Made by a program: the position numbers and the translations under genes
The notes under the pieces: model-generated
Database searches by the model: none
Told to the model about the DNA's origin: nothing
What the model saw: the letters and a program-made list of their open reading frames with translations, nothing else
NCBI GenBank assembly: GCA_016931085.1
Contig: JAFGFO010000457.1
Location: 1-35,205 of the forward strand
Origin: Thermoflexales bacterium
GTDB taxonomy: Bacteria > Chloroflexota > Anaerolineae > Fen-1058
Length of the DNA: 35,205 nt
Direction: 5' to 3'
Shown: one piece after another, positions 1 through 15,155 of the stretch
How positions within the stretch are numbered: position 1 is the first letter of the stretch
Layout of the letters: every line of letters starts with the position of its first letter

Positions 1-1
1 C

Positions 2-85
2 ATGAGCTTAACTTCATTCGATGAGCACACCTTCCATATTTGTTCTCAATGTGTCGCACTGTGTCCTTATGGTGATCCAAAATAG
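2..85 (+). CDS. Possible 3' end of a gene from the preceding cassette (partial)
   Basis: An open frame runs from the window edge to a TAG at 83-85, only seven bases before the R'' box of the attC site at 93. Genes in integron cassettes often end this close to attC. The visible 27 residues contain a Cys-x2-Cys followed by another Cys (ICSQCVALC) but match no family I recognise. There is an ATG at position 2, so this could be a chance short ORF or the tail of a longer gene that begins outside the window. Support is positional only. Confidence 0.22.
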   Translation: MSLTSFDEHTFHICSQCVALCPYGDPK

Positions 86-92
86 GAATTAC

Positions 93-220
93 GCCCAACA
101 CAGCGTGCACCCGACTGGTGGGAGTCTGCGCGTTTTTAGGTGGTTTGCGTGGCCTAGTTGGTTCCAGTAAAATAGCGTTGTCTCATCCCGCCCACCAGCG
201 GGTAACGCTCACCGTTAGAC
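93..220 (+). other. attC recombination site (integron cassette boundary) 1
   Basis: The outer boxes fit the attC consensus: GCCCAAC at 93-99 (RYYYAAC) and GTTAGAC at 214-220 (GTTRRRY). Between them the sequence folds as a typical attC hairpin. AGCGT (102-106) pairs with ACGCT (205-209). ACCCG (109-113) pairs with CGGGT (199-203). CTGGTGGG (115-122) pairs with CCCACCAG (191-198). A114 is left unpaired on one side, like the extrahelical bases that orient cleavage by the integron integrase. The loop is about 68 bases, giving a 128-bp site, long but within the known attC range. Exchange would be expected between G214 and T215, making 215 the first base of the next cassette. Confidence 0.82.
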
Positions 221-247
221 GGCTTGTCGTGAAGATGCAACGCCAAA

Positions 248-275
248 TTGACTTGTTACAATTTCTGGCTATAAT
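248..275 (+). promoter_or_regulatory. Cassette-internal promoter for the toxin-antitoxin pair
   Basis: TTGACT (248-253) and TATAAT (270-275) are separated by 16 bases. The predicted transcript start, about seven bases after the -10 box, falls at roughly 282, almost on the toxin ATG at 285. No ribosome-binding sequence precedes that ATG, so the message is probably leaderless or nearly so. Most integron cassettes lack promoters, but toxin-antitoxin cassettes are known to carry their own. Confidence 0.75.
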
Positions 276-284
276 ATAGCTACA

Positions 285-575
285 ATGAGATACGAGATTG
301 TCTTTTCACCTGAAGCAATTGAAGACTTGCGTGACCTGAGAGCGAATTGGCGGGCCAAAGTGCGGGATGCGATTGAGGCACATTTGCGCCACGCGCCTAC
401 TCGGGCGAGCAAGAGCCGCATCAAACGGCTGCGCGGCTTATCACGTCCGCAATATCGGCTAAGGGTAGATGATATTCGAGTGTATTATGATGTATCAGAA
501 CAGGCGGTAGAGATTTTAGCCATCGTGCCAAAGTCAGAAGCCGAAGAATGGTTGGGAAAGGTAGGGCAGAAATGA
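285..575 (+). CDS. RelE/ParE-family toxin
   Basis: This 96-residue protein has the size and pattern of the RelE/ParE superfamily. The N-terminal strand (YEIVFSPEA) is followed by two helices, with a basic central stretch (KSRIKRLRGL, about residues 43-52), then RLRVDDIRVYYDV and a C-terminal strand EILAIVPK. In RelE-type members such proteins cut mRNA on the ribosome; ParE-type members poison gyrase, and the sequence alone does not separate the two. The gene is the first of two, overlapping the antitoxin start by ATGA. Toxin-first order is less common than antitoxin-first. The start is the first ATG after a strong promoter and has no Shine-Dalgarno motif. It sits in an attC-bounded cassette. 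Confidence 0.85.
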   Translation: MRYEIVFSPEAIEDLRDLRANWRAKVRDAIEAHLRHAPTRASKSRIKRLRGLSRPQYRLRVDDIRVYYDVSEQAVEILAIVPKSEAEEWLGKVGQK

Positions 576-817
576 GACAGGTAGCTTTGTCCGAAATAAA
601 AGATGATTTGTCTAAATATCTTCGGTTGGCCGAAAAAGAACAGATCGTTATTACTCGGCATGGCAAGCCCGCTGGCGTGTTGGTTGGTTTTCGTTCCGAG
701 GAGGATTGGTTCGATTATCGGCTTGAACACGATCCGCGTTTTTTGCAGCGGGTCGAAGCCGCCAGGCAGAGCTTGCACTTGGGACGTGGTGTAAAACTGG
801 AAGAGATTGAGGACTAG
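572..817 (+). CDS. Phd/YefM-type antitoxin
   Basis: This 81-residue partner of the toxin has the N-terminal Phd/YefM DNA-binding fold. The pattern is MRQVALSEIKDDLSKYLRLAEKE followed by IVITRHGKPAGVLV, typical of antitoxins that bind their own operator and wrap the toxin with an acidic C-terminal tail (here ending LEEIED). I chose the ATG at 572 rather than 548. It overlaps the toxin stop as ATGA, which implies translational coupling, and it places MRQV at the family's usual N-terminus. The antitoxin is made second, so coupling may set the toxin:antitoxin ratio. Confidence 0.83.
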   Translation: MRQVALSEIKDDLSKYLRLAEKEQIVITRHGKPAGVLVGFRSEEDWFDYRLEHDPRFLQRVEAARQSLHLGRGVKLEEIED

Positions 818-1126
818 ACAGCTGTGTCAGCCAAGTAGTCAAGGCGGGTTTGGAAAAGCGGGTGATAGGCAAGAACTCGTGCTATTGGTGCGAAAACGCC
901 TACCAGGGCATACTAAGAAACCCTGTTGCAGAGCTGTTTTGGGCTGGTGCAGGGGTCACTCTGGCCTGGGGCTTAAATACCATCGTCCCAACTGGCGTCG
1001 GGCTATAGAGAACATAGATTCTTTTTGTCGCCCCCGCCCATTCTGACTCAAAATAAGTGGCATACTAAACGGGGTCGAGACAAGCTCGCCGCCAATGTCG
1101 GAATCACGCTGGAATGGGGACCAGAT
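818..1126 (+). other. Gene-free stretch in cassette 2
   Basis: About 350 bases separate the antitoxin stop from the next start at 1174. I see no convincing gene; the short open frames have no recognisable product or ribosome-binding site. The 3' part may contain a degenerate attC site (next entry). The rest shows no clear structure. Confidence 0.5.
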
Positions 1127-1133
1127 GTTAGGT
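986..1133 (+). other. Possible degenerate attC site 2
   Basis: GTTAGGT at 1127-1133 fits the GTTRRRY box and lies 41 bases before the next gene, the spacing seen for the other cassettes. Upstream, TCCCAAC (986-992) resembles RYYYAAC except for its first base. GCGT (995-998) could pair with ACGC (1106-1109). The inner arms do not pair convincingly, and the gap between ACGCT and the R' box is 16 bases instead of the four seen in sites 1 and 3. It is either a decayed site or chance. Confidence 0.25.
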
Positions 1134-1173
1134 GCTCCCGCCAGAGTAAAAACTAGATCATCCGAGGACAAAG

Positions 1174-1557
1174 ATGGGCATGTCAGCAATTGAGGTAGTC
1201 ACAGAATTCTACAGGCGGATGAATACCAATGACTTTCATTTTGCCGGTCAGATGCTCAGTGATAGTTACATCCTTGAGTGGCCTCAAACAAAGGAACGAA
1301 TCCGCGGTAGAGATAACTTCGTAGCAGTGAACAAAGAATACCCTGCTAATGGTCGCTGGCTGTTCACAATAAACAGAATAGTTGGAAATATAACGGAAGC
1401 TGTAAGCGATGTTTCCGTCACCGATGGAACCCAAGTAGCAAGGGCAATTACTTTTACAACTGTTCAAGACGGCAAGATCGTTAAGCAAGTTGAGTTCTGG
1501 CCTGACAACTATGATGCACCTGAGAATCGCAAGCATCTTGTTGAGATGTTGGAATAA
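1174..1557 (+). CDS. NTF2/SnoaL-like small protein
   Basis: This 127-residue protein has the SnoaL/NTF2-like cone fold pattern: an N-terminal helix (VVTEFYRRMNTNDF), a short loop and strand (YILEWPQTKERIRGRDNF), and C-terminal strands (ARAITFTTVQDGKIVKQVEFW). The family includes isomerases, cyclases, hydrolases and pure binding proteins. The catalytic residues are too variable to name a substrate. A GAGGA motif at 1164-1168 lies five bases before the first ATG and supports this start over the second ATG at 1180. The gene stands alone in a probable integron cassette. NTF2-like proteins are a recurrent cassette class. Confidence 0.75.
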   Translation: MGMSAIEVVTEFYRRMNTNDFHFAGQMLSDSYILEWPQTKERIRGRDNFVAVNKEYPANGRWLFTINRIVGNITEAVSDVSVTDGTQVARAITFTTVQDGKIVKQVEFWPDNYDAPENRKHLVEMLE

Positions 1558-1724
1558 AGTATGGAGACTATCACAACAACAGGCGGTGTTTACCACCTGG
1601 GTCGTGAAACACCACATCTAGAAGCTAAATGCGCTTGACGTCGGTAGACCACAAGAAATTGCCATTCGCCACAAACTGGCGCATTGCTGTATATCTTGTC
1701 ATGACTATTGTTGTGTAAACAGGC

Positions 1725-1821
1725 ACCTAACAAGTGCGTGCAGCCGACCGCGCCCGCGGCGCGCGGCTTCGATGCGGATGTGGATGTCGATGGGCGCGGC
1801 GGCTGACGCTGGTCGTTGGAC
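1725..1821 (+). other. attC recombination site (integron cassette boundary) 3
   Basis: This is a textbook attC layout of 97 bp. The R'' box is ACCTAAC (1725-1731) and the R' box is GTTGGAC (1815-1821). GCGT (1736-1739) pairs with ACGC (1806-1809). CAGCCG (1741-1746) pairs with CGGCTG (1800-1805). CCGCGCCC (1748-1755) pairs with GGGCGCGG (1792-1799). A1747 is the single unpaired base, at the same structural place as A114 in site 1. The loop is GC-rich. The cut is expected between G1815 and T1816, so the membrane-protein cassette begins at 1816. Confidence 0.88.
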
Positions 1822-1865
1822 GGCCACATTGACCATTCATCAGACAAAGGAAAGGATAGCTGAAA

Positions 1866-2618
1866 ATGACGAGTCAAGTTGCTAATGCCGAAACCGTCGA
1901 CTCGACCTATCAGAACCTCTACAAAATTGGCGGCGTAGCGGCCTTGATCGCGGCAGCGTTAGTCTTGGGTGATGTTGTAGTTCTTGCCATCTACCCACAA
2001 CCTAACACGATAAGTGACTGGTTCATGCTGTTCCCAAGCAATAGCATCGTTGGACTTGTGGATTTTTGGGGGTTGGAAGTTCCGATGTACTTGATGTTCA
2101 TTATGATGTTTCTCGCCCTCTACATGGTGCTCAGGAAAATCAATCAAAGCCTAATGGTAATCGCTCTGACCTTTGCCCTTCTGGGGATTGGGGTTTTCCT
2201 CGCAACGAATAATCCTTACTCCATGCTTTCCCTCAGCAACCAGTACGCGACTGCGACGACGGACGCGGAAAGATCGATGATCCTGGCAGCAGGACAGGCG
2301 CTGTTGTCCAATACGAACCAGCGCGCCGTTGGTGGTTTCAACATGGGACTCTTCCTGGTGTCTGCTGCGGGTCTGATGGTTTCTTCAGTCATGCTCCAGA
2401 GCACTTACTTCAGCAGGTCAACTGCCTTCGTGGGAATTCTGGCACATGGGCTGTCATTAGCTGATTATCTCAGACAGGCTCTAACGTCATCCGCAATTGT
2501 TGCGCTGCTCGTGATCCTGCCAAATGCCCTGTTCCTGGTGATATGGTATGTCCTGGTCGGACGACGGCTCTACCAGTTGGGGCATGCTGAAAGGAAAATG
2601 TTTCTCCAACAATCGTAA
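1866..2618 (+). CDS. Multi-spanning membrane protein, DUF4386-like
   Basis: The 250-residue product is very hydrophobic, with about six predicted membrane segments at roughly residues 21-43, 61-89, 96-113, 154-177, 186-200 and 211-232. Its pattern resembles DUF4386-type integral membrane proteins of unknown function; I assign this family from general appearance, not from a diagnostic motif. An AAAGGAAAGGA stretch shortly upstream of the ATG can serve as a ribosome-binding site. The gene begins 50 bases after the R' box of attC site 3. No attC follows it, so this cassette seems to have lost its 3' end. Confidence 0.7.
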   Translation: MTSQVANAETVDSTYQNLYKIGGVAALIAAALVLGDVVVLAIYPQPNTISDWFMLFPSNSIVGLVDFWGLEVPMYLMFIMMFLALYMVLRKINQSLMVIALTFALLGIGVFLATNNPYSMLSLSNQYATATTDAERSMILAAGQALLSNTNQRAVGGFNMGLFLVSAAGLMVSSVMLQSTYFSRSTAFVGILAHGLSLADYLRQALTSSAIVALLVILPNALFLVIWYVLVGRRLYQLGHAERKMFLQQS

Positions 2619-2660
2619 TCGGAAGCGTTGGCGTGGATGACGCGCTGAAACGAGACAACC

Positions 2661-2822
2661 TTGTCATCTTTGATTCTTGTGGGGTACGCAACACGTTACG
2701 GCTCAACACAGGAAGTTGCCGAGACGGTCGCGGCAACGTTACGAGAATGTGGGCTTGAAGTAGATGTTCAGCCTCTGCGTAAAGTTGGTACACTCGCAAA
2801 GTACAGCGGCGTGGTGTTTTAA
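2661..2822 (+). pseudogene. Truncated flavodoxin-domain gene (N-terminal fragment)
   Basis: From a TTG at 2661 or 2670 the frame encodes a classic flavodoxin N-terminus. Strand 1 and the FMN phosphate loop read ILVGYATRYGSTQEVAE, then a helix (TVAATLRECG), strand 2 (LEVDVQPL) and the start of strand 3 (YSGVVF). It stops there at TAA 2820-2822. Full flavodoxin or HemG-like domains run about 140-175 residues, so only about a third remains. The stop overlaps the stop codon of the convergent LysM/CAP gene. The break therefore coincides with the junction between the cassette region and the backbone. There is no ribosome-binding site and no valid ATG. Confidence 0.7.
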
Positions 2823-3937
2823 CGCATTCCAAAATCGGCGATAAAGTAGTAGCCGTTGCTGGCTGGCGCGATGCCCACGCCGATCTCGCCGTAGCGCGTG
2901 TTGAGGATGTTCTTGCGGTGCGGGTCGTTGGGCGGCGTCTCGTTGTACCACCACGTCACAGCCTTGGCCGGGTCGAGCGCCTGCACCCAGTTTTCCCCTA
3001 CAGTCTGGGCGCTGTAGCTGGCACGCTGCACCCGCGTCAACAGGCTGGCGCCATCGGAGCCGGTGTGACTGCCCCAGCCACGCTTTGAGCAGTCGTTGGC
3101 GTGGGCCTGGGCCGCGTTCATCAGCTCCGGTGCGATGCTCAAGACCGGCAGGCCGTGTGCCAGGCGTTGCTGGTTGATCAAGTCGACCACCTGGCCAGCC
3201 CAGGCCGATAGCTCGGCCGGCACGGTCGGCAACGGCGGGGGTGTTGGCTGGGCGGTGGGCGCGGATGAGGTAGAGAGAGGGGCGGGGGTCAGCGTGGCTT
3301 GGGTGCCGCTGACATGCCTGGTGGGCGTGGCGGCCGGGGTGGAAGTCGAGGTGGGCAGCGGCGTGGAGGTGGGCAGGGGCGTCGGCGCTTGCGCGATGAC
3401 CAGGTTGCCCGCCGGGATGACGATCAACTGCCCGATCCCAATCAGGGCCGGGTCGGCCACGGCGTTGACCCGCAAGAGCTCGTCAACGCTCGTGCCATAA
3501 GCCTCGGCAATCTTGAACAACGATTCGCCGGACTGAACGACGTGAACGATCCAATACGGCGTTTCGTCTGCGCCCAGGGCCGAGGGGATGATCAGCGTTT
3601 GTCCCAGTTTAACGATGGTCGAGTCGCCCATGCCGTTGATTAATTGGATGGCTGCCATAGAGACGTGGTACTGTAAGGCTATGCCCAACAAAGTATCCCC
3701 CGCCTGGACGACGTACTGGGCGGATTCGTCGGGCGCAAATGGGGTCGGCACCGCTGGAGGCATCTCGGCCGACACTGGCGTGCTGCCAGGCAGTGGCAGG
3801 GGGGGGGCCGTCAGCATCATCACGGCCATGTCAGTGGTTGGCGTGGCCTGGATGGGTTGGGGCAGGGGGCCACAACCGGCCAGCAGGATGGCCAGGCAGC
3901 CGGCCACGAGTAACAAATGTGACCTGTAACTACTCAT
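2819..3937 (-). CDS. Lipoprotein with two LysM repeats and a CAP/SCP domain
   Basis: The 372-residue protein begins with a lipoprotein signal ending LLAGC (Cys22). Two LysM repeats follow (about 75-118, YVVQAGDTL, and 131-175, VHVVQSGESL), then a Thr/Pro-rich linker (about 183-240) and a C-terminal CAP domain (about 243-372). The CAP domain shows its signature residues His291 (SHTGSDG), Glu315 (GENW) and His340 (DPHRKNIL). LysM repeats bind peptidoglycan or related glycans; CAP domains of this bacterial type are of uncertain biochemistry. The ATG at 3937 is chosen because it starts the signal peptide; the upstream open frame is repeat DNA. It is an envelope protein exposed outside the membrane. 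Confidence 0.88.
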   Translation of the reverse strand: MSSYRSHLLLVAGCLAILLAGCGPLPQPIQATPTTDMAVMMLTAPPLPLPGSTPVSAEMPPAVPTPFAPDESAQYVVQAGDTLLGIALQYHVSMAAIQLINGMGDSTIVKLGQTLIIPSALGADETPYWIVHVVQSGESLFKIAEAYGTSVDELLRVNAVADPALIGIGQLIVIPAGNLVIAQAPTPLPTSTPLPTSTSTPAATPTRHVSGTQATLTPAPLSTSSAPTAQPTPPPLPTVPAELSAWAGQVVDLINQQRLAHGLPVLSIAPELMNAAQAHANDCSKRGWGSHTGSDGASLLTRVQRASYSAQTVGENWVQALDPAKAVTWWYNETPPNDPHRKNILNTRYGEIGVGIAPASNGYYFIADFGMR

Positions 3938-4030
3938 GTCAAAGATACACTGAGCAAGCACAGACGCGAAGCGCGCAGGGAAAATCGAGCTTTTTAAAGC
4001 CTTTGTGTCCTTGTATCTTCGCAAAATGTA

Positions 4031-4053
4031 GGGGCAACCACAGGGGGTTGCCC
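4031..4053. repeat. Short hairpin repeat
   Basis: GGGCAACC (4032-4039) and GGTTGCCC (4046-4053) form an 8-bp stem. The surrounding 3955-4080 is gene-free and repeat-like. It lies between the divergent-facing LysM/CAP start and the thiolase stop, and may be a dispersed element or thiolase terminator. Confidence 0.5.
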
Positions 4054-4150
4054 TTGAGGGCAAGCGCGGGGGCCTGTCCCTCCCCCGCATTATTGAGAAG
4101 ATACGTGTCCTTCGGAAAAAAATGTGCCAGGCTGGGTGGTTACTATGGCC

Positions 4151-5350
4151 TCACATCCTCTCAATCGATAGGGCCACGGCCTCTCCGCCGCCCAGGCACA
4201 ACGTTGCCAGGCCGCTTTTCAAGCCGTGATCTTGCAGGGCGTACAGTAGCGTGACCAGCACGCGCGTCCCACTGGCGCCGATGGGGTGCCCCAGGGCGAT
4301 CGCGCCGCCGTTCACATTGACGCGCCCGGCATCCCAGCCCAGGCCCTGGCCATCGGCCAGGCATTGGGCCGCGAACGCTTCGTTAGCCTCGATGAGATCA
4401 TAATCATCGATGCACCGGCCAGCCTTGTCCATCAAGCGCCTGACGGCAAAAATGGGGGCGCTAAAGATCTCCATCGGCTTGACGCCCGCCTGGTCGTAGC
4501 CCGTGATGCGCCCCAGTGGCGTGATGCCGAGTTGCTCGGCCTTGCGCAGGCTCATGATCACCACCGCCGCCGCCCCGTCGGTGATGCCCGGGGCGTTGCC
4601 GGCCGTGACGCTGCCGCTTGGCTCAAAGGCTGGCTTGAGCCTGGCCAGCGCTTCCAGCGAAGTGTCGCGGCGGGGGCACTCGTCAACCTCAAAGAGGGTG
4701 GGGGGTCCCTTTTTGGCCGGGATCTCGACCGCCACGATTTCGGCCTTGAACTTGCCGGTGTCTTGGGCCGCGATGGCCTTCTGGTGGCTGTGGTAGGCGT
4801 ACTCGTCTTGCGCCTGGCGGGTGATGTTGTAGGCGCGCGCGATCCACTCGGCCGAACTGCCCATGTGGTGGTTTTCGAACGCGCACCACAGTCCATCCGA
4901 GATCATGCTGTCGATCAGCTCGCCATGTCCCATGCGATACCCGGTGCGGGCGCGTGCGAGCAGGTAGGGGCACATGTTCATGTTCTCCATCCCGCCGGCC
5001 ACGATGATCTCGGCGTCGCCGGCCCGGATCATCGCTGCTCCCAGCATGACGGCCTTGAGGCTCGAGCCACAAACTTTGTTGATGGCTGTGGCGCGCACGC
5101 CCTCGGCCGGAAGACCTCCGGCGATCGCCGCCTGGCGGGCCGGCGCCTGGCCCAGTCCGGCCGAGACGACGTTGCCCATCATGACTTCGTCCACGGCGGC
5201 CGGGTCTAGGCCAGCCCGGCGCAGCGCTTCGCGGACGACGACCCCGCCCAGTTGTGGCGCTGGCATCGTCGAGAGCGCCCCGCCAAACTTGCCGATGGCG
5301 GTCCGGCATGCACTGACAATCACGACTTGAGACTCTTTGTTAGTTGACAT
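4151..5350 (-). CDS. Acetyl-CoA C-acetyltransferase (thiolase)
   Basis: This 399-residue thiolase II-type enzyme catalyses reversible condensation of two acetyl-CoA to acetoacetyl-CoA, or thiolysis of 3-ketoacyl-CoA. All catalytic elements are present: Cys94 in INKVCGSS (acyl-enzyme nucleophile), His355 in GGAIALGHPIGASG, and Cys385 in TLCLGGGEA. Length is typical (390-400). It stands alone, with no adjacent hydroxyacyl-CoA dehydrogenase or HMG-CoA synthase, so the pathway (isoprenoid entry, polyhydroxyalkanoate or fatty acid oxidation) cannot be fixed. The start ATG begins the usual N-terminus VVIVSACRTAIGKFGG. The upstream ribosome-binding site is weak. Confidence 0.95.
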   Translation of the reverse strand: MSTNKESQVVIVSACRTAIGKFGGALSTMPAPQLGGVVVREALRRAGLDPAAVDEVMMGNVVSAGLGQAPARQAAIAGGLPAEGVRATAINKVCGSSLKAVMLGAAMIRAGDAEIIVAGGMENMNMCPYLLARARTGYRMGHGELIDSMISDGLWCAFENHHMGSSAEWIARAYNITRQAQDEYAYHSHQKAIAAQDTGKFKAEIVAVEIPAKKGPPTLFEVDECPRRDTSLEALARLKPAFEPSGSVTAGNAPGITDGAAAVVIMSLRKAEQLGITPLGRITGYDQAGVKPMEIFSAPIFAVRRLMDKAGRCIDDYDLIEANEAFAAQCLADGQGLGWDAGRVNVNGGAIALGHPIGASGTRVLVTLLYALQDHGLKSGLATLCLGGGEAVALSIERM

Positions 5351-7340: not shown

Positions 7341-8735
7341 ATGAACGAGCAGATTCAGACAGCGAGTAACAGCCAGGTTATCCAGGCTCCTGGCGAACCT
7401 AACCCCATGCAGCAATTGCTTGGCGAAGACTTTTCGATCGAGCAGCCTAAGCGAGGGGAGATTCGGACTGGCACAGTGGCGGCGGTGACGTCGCACGAGA
7501 TCCTGATCGACGTCGGATACAAGTCAGAGGGTGTGATTGCCGGCCGTGAACTGGAAGGTATCCCACCCGAAATCCGATCTGAGTTGAAGGTCGGTGACGC
7601 GATCTTGACTTACGTCGTCACTCCTGAGGATCGGAATGGCAATCTCATCTTGTCGTTTTCCCGCGCCCAGGCTGAGCAGGACTGGCGCGATGCCGAGTCC
7701 ATCTATGATCAGCAAGAAACGTTCGAGGGACTGGTGGCCGGTTTCAACAAGGGCGGTTTGATTGTCAAGATGGGCAAGGTGCGTGGCTTCGTCCCCGCCT
7801 CGCAATTGGTTAGCATGCACAGCCGGCAAGAGATGCTGGGAGATGAAGAGGACGAGGTTTTGGAGGAGCTTCAGCCTGGAGAACGCCCCCAGGATCGTTG
7901 GCAGCAGTTGGTCGGTAAAAAGCTGCGACTCAAGGTCATCGAGATCGACCGCGCACGCAACCGCCTGATCCTCTCGGAACGAGCGGCCATGCGCGAGTGG
8001 CGCAAGGTCCAGAAGGAAAAGCTGCTTTCCGAGCTGCACGAGGGCATGCAACTGAAGGGCACAGTCATCAGCCTGGCGGACTTTGGCGCGTTTGTCGATC
8101 TGGGCGGAGCTGACGGCCTGGTGCACTTGTCCGAATTGTCGTGGAAGCGTGTCGCGCACCCGCGCGAGGTACTCCGCGTCGGGCAGGAGGTTGATGTCGA
8201 GGTGCTGAGCGTTGACCGTGACCGCAAGCGTATCGCCTTGAGCCTGAAGCGCACGGAACAGGATCCCTGGGGTGGTGTGGAAAACCATTACAAGATCGGC
8301 CAATTGGTTGAAGGTGTGATTACCAAGTTGGTCAAGTTCGGCGCGTTTGCCCGCATCGTGGGCGATGAGGATATCGAGGGCTTGATTCACGTCTCCGAGC
8401 TGTCCGAAGGCCGCGTCAACCATCCCAAGGAGGTCGTGCACGAGGGCCAGACACTGACATTGCGTATTATCAAGATCGATGCTGGTCGCCGCCGCTTGGG
8501 CCTGAGCCTCAAGCGAGTGGATAGCGCCGAGTATGCTGAAGAAGACTGGCAGCGTGGATTGGCCGACGCGATGCAGGACATAGACGAGTTGGCTGCTGAG
8601 GCCGAAGATGCGGAAGAGGCGGCTTACGAGAGCGTTGAGCAAGTGGCCGAGCTGGCCCAGGAGATCGGCCAAGTGGCTGAAGACGTGGTCGAAATGGCTC
8701 AGCCGCTCGAGCCAGCCGCAGTAGTGAATGAGTAA
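7341..8735 (+). CDS. rpsA: S1 RNA-binding domain protein, ribosomal protein S1-like
   Basis: The 464-residue protein carries four S1 (OB-fold) RNA-binding repeats, at about 38-107, 125-214, 234-303 and 319-391. The last two are the most canonical (GTVISLADFGAFVDLGGADGLVHLSEL-type). It ends in a long acidic tail of about 65 residues. Ribosomal protein S1 helps the 30S subunit engage mRNA; four-domain forms are usual outside Proteobacteria, where six is the norm. Because several ORFs here are leaderless or weakly preceded by ribosome-binding motifs, S1-type help is plausible. It has its own promoter and a GGGAGAAG site. Confidence 0.9.
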   Translation: MNEQIQTASNSQVIQAPGEPNPMQQLLGEDFSIEQPKRGEIRTGTVAAVTSHEILIDVGYKSEGVIAGRELEGIPPEIRSELKVGDAILTYVVTPEDRNGNLILSFSRAQAEQDWRDAESIYDQQETFEGLVAGFNKGGLIVKMGKVRGFVPASQLVSMHSRQEMLGDEEDEVLEELQPGERPQDRWQQLVGKKLRLKVIEIDRARNRLILSERAAMREWRKVQKEKLLSELHEGMQLKGTVISLADFGAFVDLGGADGLVHLSELSWKRVAHPREVLRVGQEVDVEVLSVDRDRKRIALSLKRTEQDPWGGVENHYKIGQLVEGVITKLVKFGAFARIVGDEDIEGLIHVSELSEGRVNHPKEVVHEGQTLTLRIIKIDAGRRRLGLSLKRVDSAEYAEEDWQRGLADAMQDIDELAAEAEDAEEAAYESVEQVAELAQEIGQVAEDVVEMAQPLEPAAVVNE

Positions 8736-14039: not shown

Positions 14040-15155
14040 ATGTTTAACCGACAGGAATTGCAAGAATTGGCTGCTTACTCCAGTAGTAACGGCGCGATCC
14101 TCAGTGTTTACTTGAATGTCGATCCGACTCGGCACACGCGGGATGAATACAAGCTGGCGCTGCGCGGGCTGCTGCGCAAAGCGGCTGGCCTGGGGGCCGC
14201 AGAGGAAGACATTGCCGCCGTAGAACGATTTTTTGAGCTAGAATATGATTGGAGCGGGCGCGGTGTGGTCGTGTTTTCGTGTGCGGCAGATGATTTCTGG
14301 AAAGACTACTCGTTGTCGGTGCCTCTGGAAAATCACGTTTTTGTGTGGAGCAAGCCTTATATCACGCCGCTGGCGGAGGCGTGGGACACCTACGGGCGGT
14401 GTGTGCTGGGCCTGGTCGACCGGCAGGGCGCCAAGTTGATGCTGTACCAGTTGGGTGAGCTGGTCAAGGCAGAGGGTGTCATGGGAGAGGAGGTGCGTCA
14501 TATCAAGGCCGGAGGCGGCTCGTCGGCCGCCGGGCGGCGCGGCGGCACGGCTACGCGCTCGTCTAAACGTGAGGGTGAAGCGACCGTGCGTAACCTCAAG
14601 GAGGCCGCCGAGTTGATGGTGGCGTTTTGCGAGACCCACCAGCCGCGCAATGTGCTGCTGGCCGGCGAGCGTGAGACCCTCAAGCAGTTCAGGACCCGCC
14701 TGCCGCGCGTGTGGGCGGATCGCGTGATCGGCACTTTTGCCGCCGATATGACCACGGCTGAAATCGACTTGCGTGACAAGGTGTTTACCATCCTGGAAAA
14801 AGTCGAACGAGAGCACGAGGTGGCCTTGACGGACGCGATCATCACGGCGGCCGGCAAAGGCCGGGGAGGCGTCATTACCCTGGATCAGACGCTTAGCGCT
14901 GCTCACGGTGGCCAGATCCAAACTCTGGTGGTCGCCGAAGACTATCACGCGGAAGGCTTTCAATGTCAGGGCTGTAGCTATGTGACGGCCCAAGACTTGG
15001 GGACCTGCCCGTTTTGCGGTGGCCAGATGATCAGTATCCCCGATGCAGTCGAGGCGATTATTGGGCAGGTCCTGGAGATGGGGGGCCATGTCGAGGTGGT
15101 GGAGGGCCACGCGGAATTGAACGCGGCTGGCATTGGGGCTTTGTTGAGATATTGA
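14040..15155 (+). CDS. Bacterial eRF1-like (baeRF) protein with C-terminal zinc ribbon
   Basis: The 371-residue protein matches the baeRF group, bacterial relatives of archaeo-eukaryotic release factor 1. The N-terminus SVYLNVDP, the middle CVLGLVDRQGAKLML, and the domain-3-like stretch (EAAELMVAFCETHQPRNVLLAGERE, then TLDQTLSAAHGGQIQTLVVAED) are characteristic. It ends with a zinc ribbon, CQGC and CPFC. The loop expected to hold the catalytic GGQ is Gly/Ser/Arg-rich (GGGSSAAGRRGG) with no GGQ. Such proteins are proposed to release stalled peptides or act in ribosome rescue, by analogy with eRF1, Pelota and Vms1; the exact activity is unknown. AAGGAG precedes the ATG. The neighbours are two ClpC genes. 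Confidence 0.8.
   Translation: MFNRQELQELAAYSSSNGAILSVYLNVDPTRHTRDEYKLALRGLLRKAAGLGAAEEDIAAVERFFELEYDWSGRGVVVFSCAADDFWKDYSLSVPLENHVFVWSKPYITPLAEAWDTYGRCVLGLVDRQGAKLMLYQLGELVKAEGVMGEEVRHIKAGGGSSAAGRRGGTATRSSKREGEATVRNLKEAAELMVAFCETHQPRNVLLAGERETLKQFRTRLPRVWADRVIGTFAADMTTAEIDLRDKVFTILEKVEREHEVALTDAIITAAGKGRGGVITLDQTLSAAHGGQIQTLVVAEDYHAEGFQCQGCSYVTAQDLGTCPFCGGQMISIPDAVEAIIGQVLEMGGHVEVVEGHAELNAAGIGALLRY

Follow-up and report, generated by a model that had tools for sequence, protein, structure and literature searches.

The left end of a bacterial contig (JAFGFO010000457.1) carries two palindromic sites with genes between and behind them, and raises the question of whether these are parts of an integron and, if so, whether the element belongs to its host or reached it recently. 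Integrons are natural systems by which bacteria collect genes. Their integrases insert cassettes as circles, recombining the folded bottom strand of the attC site, and the attC of a cassette pairs, at its left end, with the cassette's own first bases. The stretch analysed (35,205 nucleotides, here called the window) is the entire contig, and its left edge cuts the array. A preliminary description had read the locus as an integron cassette array; this reading is supported, and a signal spotted by eye in raw sequence has been borne out. It fairly remarked that integrons are known above all from Proteobacteria, though their presence in Chloroflexota is already in print: a passage of PMC2426708 reported intI in Chloroflexi in 2008, and passages of PMC8618304 and PMC9668308 list Chloroflexota among the integron-bearing phyla. 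A literature search, with most subscription journals outside its scope, found no paper titled on integrons of Chloroflexota. The array is a real but ordinary example, since integrons were already known in the phylum, and it extends a known system where few arrays have been described. Bases 1 to about 2,820 probably form the distal end of a sedentary integron that resides in the chromosome of a Chloroflexota bacterium related to Anaerolineae.

Identification of the attC Sites

Site 1 (93..220, + strand) is bounded by the boxes GCCCAAC (R'', 93-99) and GTTAGAC (R', 214-220), its inner arms GCGT (103-106) and ACGC (205-208) facing each other with A114 unpaired. Site 2 (1725..1821, + strand) has the boxes ACCTAAC (R'', 1725-1731) and GTTGGAC (R', 1815-1821), which agree at 4 of 7 positions only, inner arms GCGT (1736-1739) and ACGC (1806-1809), and A1747 unpaired. 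The R'' (RYYYAAC) and R' (GTTRRRY) boxes are present at the ends of both sites, and A114 and A1747 are also unpaired in the covariance-model alignment; the paired arms, single unpaired adenines and terminal boxes of the preliminary description are thus all in place. Both sites lie on the + strand with 1,504 bases between them, and the intervening genes are also on the + strand, which is the arrangement defining a cassette array (at least two attC less than 4 kb apart, in one orientation, with genes between them).

Such palindromes could also arise by chance, or belong to another kind of repeat (a terminator, a REP element or a transposon end). Five places in the window have a pair of R boxes separated by 40-200 bp, so the boxes are weak evidence by themselves, and minimum-free-energy folding is likewise weak as a test, with z values of -1.10 (- strand) and -2.04 (+ strand) for site 1 and of -2.04 (- strand) and -1.57 (+ strand) for site 2. 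When boxes and inner arms were scored together, sites 1 and 2 reached 28 and 31, and one other place reached 18 (88 loci).

Two attC covariance models were built in the present analysis: R1, from 15 attC sites of 7 Chloroflexota array regions (20 fetched) with the window excluded, and R2, from 37 sites with the window and the loci L136 and L141 excluded, L141 being the locus where site 1 has its nearest relative. Some dependence of R2 on these two loci persists, because the fit of R1 had taken in both. With R1, site 1 scored 53.7 bits (E 5.5e-11) and site 2 scored 49.1 bits (E 7e-10), both as + strand matches; no further place in the window exceeded 16.9 bits, and the control maximum was 18.0 bits in 664,295 bases (38 of 80 thiolase loci, all Chloroflexota-named). 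With R2, the sites scored 47.3 and 50.0 bits, against a control maximum of 18.7 in the same 38 loci. The preliminary description had chosen covariance-model scores as the test of its reading, and by both models its two sites lie about 30 bits over any control place. Covariation points the same way in alignment A3 (37 sites), although this alignment was fitted to the structure through model R1: 92.5% of cells were paired (shuffled mean 76.2), and 108 cells were changed on both sides (shuffled mean 33.9). A scan of the window against Rfam gave no match at the gathering threshold. Sites 1 and 2 are confirmed as genuine attC sites. Besides the 30-bit distance from any control place, the common orientation, the gene-sized spacing, the complementary cassette ends (see below) and a near relative of site 1 inside an integron speak against a chance repeat, whose probability we regard as negligible.

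This near relative lies in L141, where bases 7845-7883 match site 1 at 87.5% over 40 bp and bases 7884-7933 at 88% over 50 bp. L141 comes from a genome (G352) of the same class as the Caldilineales record G002, and combines intI and an attC array on a contig of 3.97 Mb, a span that makes a binning error unlikely; its integrase (465 bits) is about 6 kb from the relative of site 1. The L141 site (7846-7935) has an enlarged bulge, and was not recovered by R2 at E <= 10.

Cassettes and Their Junctions

The preliminary description had attC sites separating cassettes for a toxin-antitoxin pair, a SnoaL-like protein and a membrane protein, all in one orientation, and the sites and genes do lie together on the + strand. 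Left of site 1, a cassette truncated by the contig edge retains its 3' end (1..92, + strand). The toxin-antitoxin cassette would run from the core of site 1 to the next core (215..1127, + strand), its own attC being missing. It holds a ParE-type toxin gene (285..575, + strand; PF05016, 35.4 bits, cut-off 23) followed by a Phd/YefM antitoxin gene (572..817, + strand; PF02604, 43.8 bits, cut-off 29.8; TIGR01552), whose ATG at 572 overlaps the toxin stop, an alternative in-frame ATG at 548 being possible. Ahead of the pair lies a promoter-like TTGACT-16-TATAAT sequence (248..275, + strand) with 11 of 12 consensus bases; bases 1-3000 contain five promoter-like sites, against 2.5 +/- 1.6 in shuffles.

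On its sequence, the lone core site (R') GTTAGGTGC at 1127..1135 (+ strand), which lacks the left attC half, is a third cassette junction absent from the preliminary description. It is the complement of GCACCTAAC (1723-1731), the left end of site 2, and the match is 9/10 over the extended boxes. These complementary ends at 1127 and 1731 suggest a SnoaL cassette of about 1128..1815 (+ strand), separate from the toxin-antitoxin cassette before it. In six Chloroflexota arrays, end complementarity of at least 9/10 was found in 14 of 26 neighbouring sites vs 19 of 162 other pairings, a few counts being lowered by model-derived site ends that are off by one to three bases. The toxin-antitoxin and DUF4386 cassettes showed no partner with complementary ends (best 6/10 and 7/10, respectively). 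In an unfiltered model search of 800-2900, site 2 was the sole confident match, with no attC at 1127, from which we infer that the attC of the toxin-antitoxin cassette is gone.

The SnoaL-like gene (1174..1557, + strand; PF12680, 40.4 bits, cut-off 27) encodes a protein with 1461 relatives at E <= 0.001, 14 of them full-length, 85-90% identical and located on contigs of 0.9-15 kb. Among sister genomes, 5 of 396 have relatives at E <= 1e-30 (50-58% identity), and as a test of shared origin no attC was found within the fetched flanks of these five.

Immediately left of the lone core, bases 1066-1123 resemble bases 5699-5755 of L136 (79% over 58 bp, E about 3e-6). The L136 match adjoins an IS110-family transposase fragment in another integron, and the window copy stops just before the 1127 core. 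An IS110-type insertion was considered as the destroyer of the middle attC and rejected. No copy of the stretch was seen next to 17 further IS110-type loci scoring above 29 bits, nor in 150 genomes, a sample holding no positive control; of 30 chosen genomes, G305, from which L136 comes, has it, G331 has it weakly, and no other does. An exact 18-mer of the stretch in a viral contig was also discarded, as the match did not extend.

Distal End of the Array

The array continues past 1821 and ends at about 2.8 kb against housekeeping-type genes. Its last complete cassette gene encodes a DUF4386 membrane protein (1866..2618, + strand; PF14329, 35.2 bits, cut-off 27.6), and a possible collapsed attC of this cassette, a weak candidate, is seen at 2604..2633 (+ strand), with 9.9 bits under R2 and an E of 0.11 for an unfiltered search of 2.1 kb. 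At the chromosome boundary stands a truncated flavodoxin-domain gene (2670..2822, + strand; PF12724, 29.0 bits) that covers positions 1-49 of the 145 in the profile; it breaks off after some 50 residues, exactly at the end of the LysM-CAP gene, and is probably what is left of a further cassette. The gene for a LysM and CAP domain protein (2819..4090, - strand; PF01476, PF00188), taken as the listed open reading frame, although its true start may be further in, is the first of the flanking chromosome, and beyond about 2.8 kb it is followed by other housekeeping-type genes. G+C climbs at this gene from 49-53% to 60% and more; over the contig, the array has 49-53% and the sequence beyond it 53-67%, and the array lies about 10 points under its flank.

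These features can be joined into one proposed history. Each cassette would have been inserted as a circle by an integron integrase, one attC being left behind each gene, and the cassettes so acquired hold the ParE/Phd pair with its own promoter-like sequence, the SnoaL-like protein and the DUF4386 membrane protein. Erosion of the far end would account for the attC behind the toxin-antitoxin cassette, of which the core alone is left, for the want of a clear attC in the last cassette and for the truncation of the flavodoxin gene at the chromosomal boundary.

Host of the Contig

The preliminary description spoke of a Chloroflexota-like genome, and the flanking genes agree with it. The neighbouring thiolase has 11 records with Chloroflexota names (64-70% identity) among its 12 best matches, and the remaining one is Spirochaetes-labelled, on a contig of 3 kb. 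For the protein encoded at 14040-15152, all six organism names given among the 120 relatives listed are Anaerolineae, Anaerolineaceae or Chloroflexi; these six relatives are 52-54% identical, while the closest listed, outside those six, reach 89-90%, and the closest genome in the class sample of G002 stands at 55%. The class name for the genomes around G002 was taken from G003-G006 (labelled Chloroflexi, Anaerolineae and Anaerolineales), which fall within it. No common neighbour order was seen between the window and the nearest thiolase loci. Judged from these proteins, the host looks like a Chloroflexota bacterium related to Anaerolineae.

Integrases and attC Sites in Related Genomes

The search for integron integrases, with TIGR02249 at its curated cut-off, covered genomes around the closest relatives of the thiolase as well as the class of G002; in this class, 96 of the 396 genomes sampled were positive, against 0 of 14 control genomes. 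The L136 integrase matches the integrases of all 23 fetched loci, with 59-75% identity for the near-full-length ones. For attC, scoring was limited to the best 20, 40 and 27 first-look candidates of each genome in the G002, Rummeliibacillus and Chloroflexus classes, respectively, and the tallies are therefore rough: attC matches were found in 105 of 199 genomes of G002's class (74 with at least two and 31 with a single match), in 1 of 101 genomes of the Rummeliibacillus class, and, with R1, in 39 of the 150 genomes searched in the Chloroflexus class (the class of G401), 28 of them with at least two. The Chloroflexus class had been tried as a G+C-matched negative control for R1, and was rejected with these 39 positives; some of its genomes have 10 or more matches. 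In addition, one of six single genomes gave an attC match.

Among the 105 attC-positive genomes of G002's class, 44 are also integrase-positive and 61 are outside the list of 96, and attC clusters lacking an integrase look common in this class. Some genomes, e.g., G138 (18 matches) and G153 (11), have many attC matches and no integrase over the cut-off. On a second contig of G002 (L121, G002:C81), the integrase match comes in two pieces, as if from a decayed intI, and an attC scoring 46.0 bits is close by. In L136, a gene with a serine beta-lactamase-type domain (3063-4313; PF00144) ends inside the cassette attC; its product could be an esterase or a peptidase of that fold.

Origin of the Array

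By the orientation rule of integron arrays, the integrase is expected left of base 1. The integrase and attI of the present element would therefore lie beyond the contig edge, and the array may be, or may have been, active in recombination with them. In the window, integrase matches did not improve on E 0.45, the contig ending on the expected side, and no attI was found, the place for one being off the contig. A passage of the IntegronFinder 2.0 paper (PMC9024848) describes cassette arrays of draft genomes as split at contig borders; among sister contigs, 7 of 20 end within 1.1 kb of intI on the array side and 11 of 20 within 4 kb, so that a break inside the array is usual.

The same observations could be read as a CALIN, i.e., an attC cluster in a genome that is integrase-less (through integrase loss, rearrangement or off-target insertion), no longer gaining cassettes itself. 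The window yields no integrase, and the 61 of 105 attC-positive genomes outside the integrase list (36 of 74 among those with at least two matches) make this a serious rival, to which the distal erosion (the missing attC and the truncated flavodoxin gene) would also fit. Nonetheless, the array runs off the contig on the very side where an integrase is expected, the genomes with no detected integrase include fragmented ones, and distal erosion would be expected in complete integrons too, so we consider a CALIN unlikely, if well worth weighing.

A mobile element might instead have brought the array in recently, as one block from another lineage, and its G+C, about 10 points under the flank, might point to such an origin; however, low G+C is usual in cassette genes, and both attC sites match the kind known from Chloroflexota integrons. 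Searches with blastn of bases 1-3000 and 1130-1830 against 72,556 plasmid records gave no match, nor did site 1 against phages, and the open reading frames scanned (a subset of those of the window) showed neither a transposase nor another mobility gene. We regard this origin as very improbable. The preliminary description had offered two alternatives, a resident array lacking a nearby integrase and a recent import. The former is the better supported, by the integrases (96/396) and attC matches (105/199) of sister genomes, by the close counterpart that site 1 has on the 3.97-Mb Chloroflexota contig, next to an integrase gene, and by the lack of a plasmid match and, for site 1, of a phage match. 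A recent import from another Chloroflexota is possible, and the array is most likely resident. Against the reading as the distal end of a resident integron it counts that the complete element is not seen in the window and that the middle attC is missing.

Broadly, the class frequencies (integrases in 96/396, attC in 105/199) suggest that both are frequent there, at a level comparable to the 20% given for Gammaproteobacteria genomes in a passage of PMC9668308, a figure from another data set and method. The frequency of integrons in Chloroflexota may be new, as a rough side result. It is conceivable, though we stop short of calling it probable, that sedentary integrons have a major, under-described home in Anaerolineae and other Chloroflexota, with an attC type of their own, a Gammaproteobacteria-like integrase frequency per species and many integrase-less clusters, the left end of the window being the eroding distal end of one such integron; if so, its contig would show the way in which arrays decay into chromosomal sequence. 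Passages of PMC8352920 name 11 taxon-specific attC models, none of them for Chloroflexota, and cassettes from the phylum could consequently go unassigned. Furthermore, the Chloroflexi origin suggested for the mobile gene sul4 in a passage of PMC5732528 gives the cassette traffic of the phylum some practical interest.

Comparison With Known Systems

The array resembles a CALIN in having two attC 1.5 kb apart and no integrase on the contig, a passage of PMC9668308 giving a spacing of two attC below 4 kb as the usual mark of a CALIN; it differs in that the contig ends inside the array, with the integrase side cut off. Unlike a plasmid-borne or mobile integron, it has no plasmid match and a flank of housekeeping-type genes. 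Toxin-antitoxin cassettes occur in large sedentary integrons such as that of Vibrio cholerae, with which the window shares a toxin-antitoxin pair with its own promoter-like sequence inside the array; on the other hand, in the window the host phylum is another, the toxin gene comes first and the attC of the toxin-antitoxin cassette has been lost. The chromosomal Chloroflexota integron of L141 differs from the window in its three-base bulge, where the window has a single unpaired A, in the loop of site 1, which is longer in the window, and in its intI, neither intI nor attI being seen in the window; nonetheless, its attC are of the same kind as those described here.
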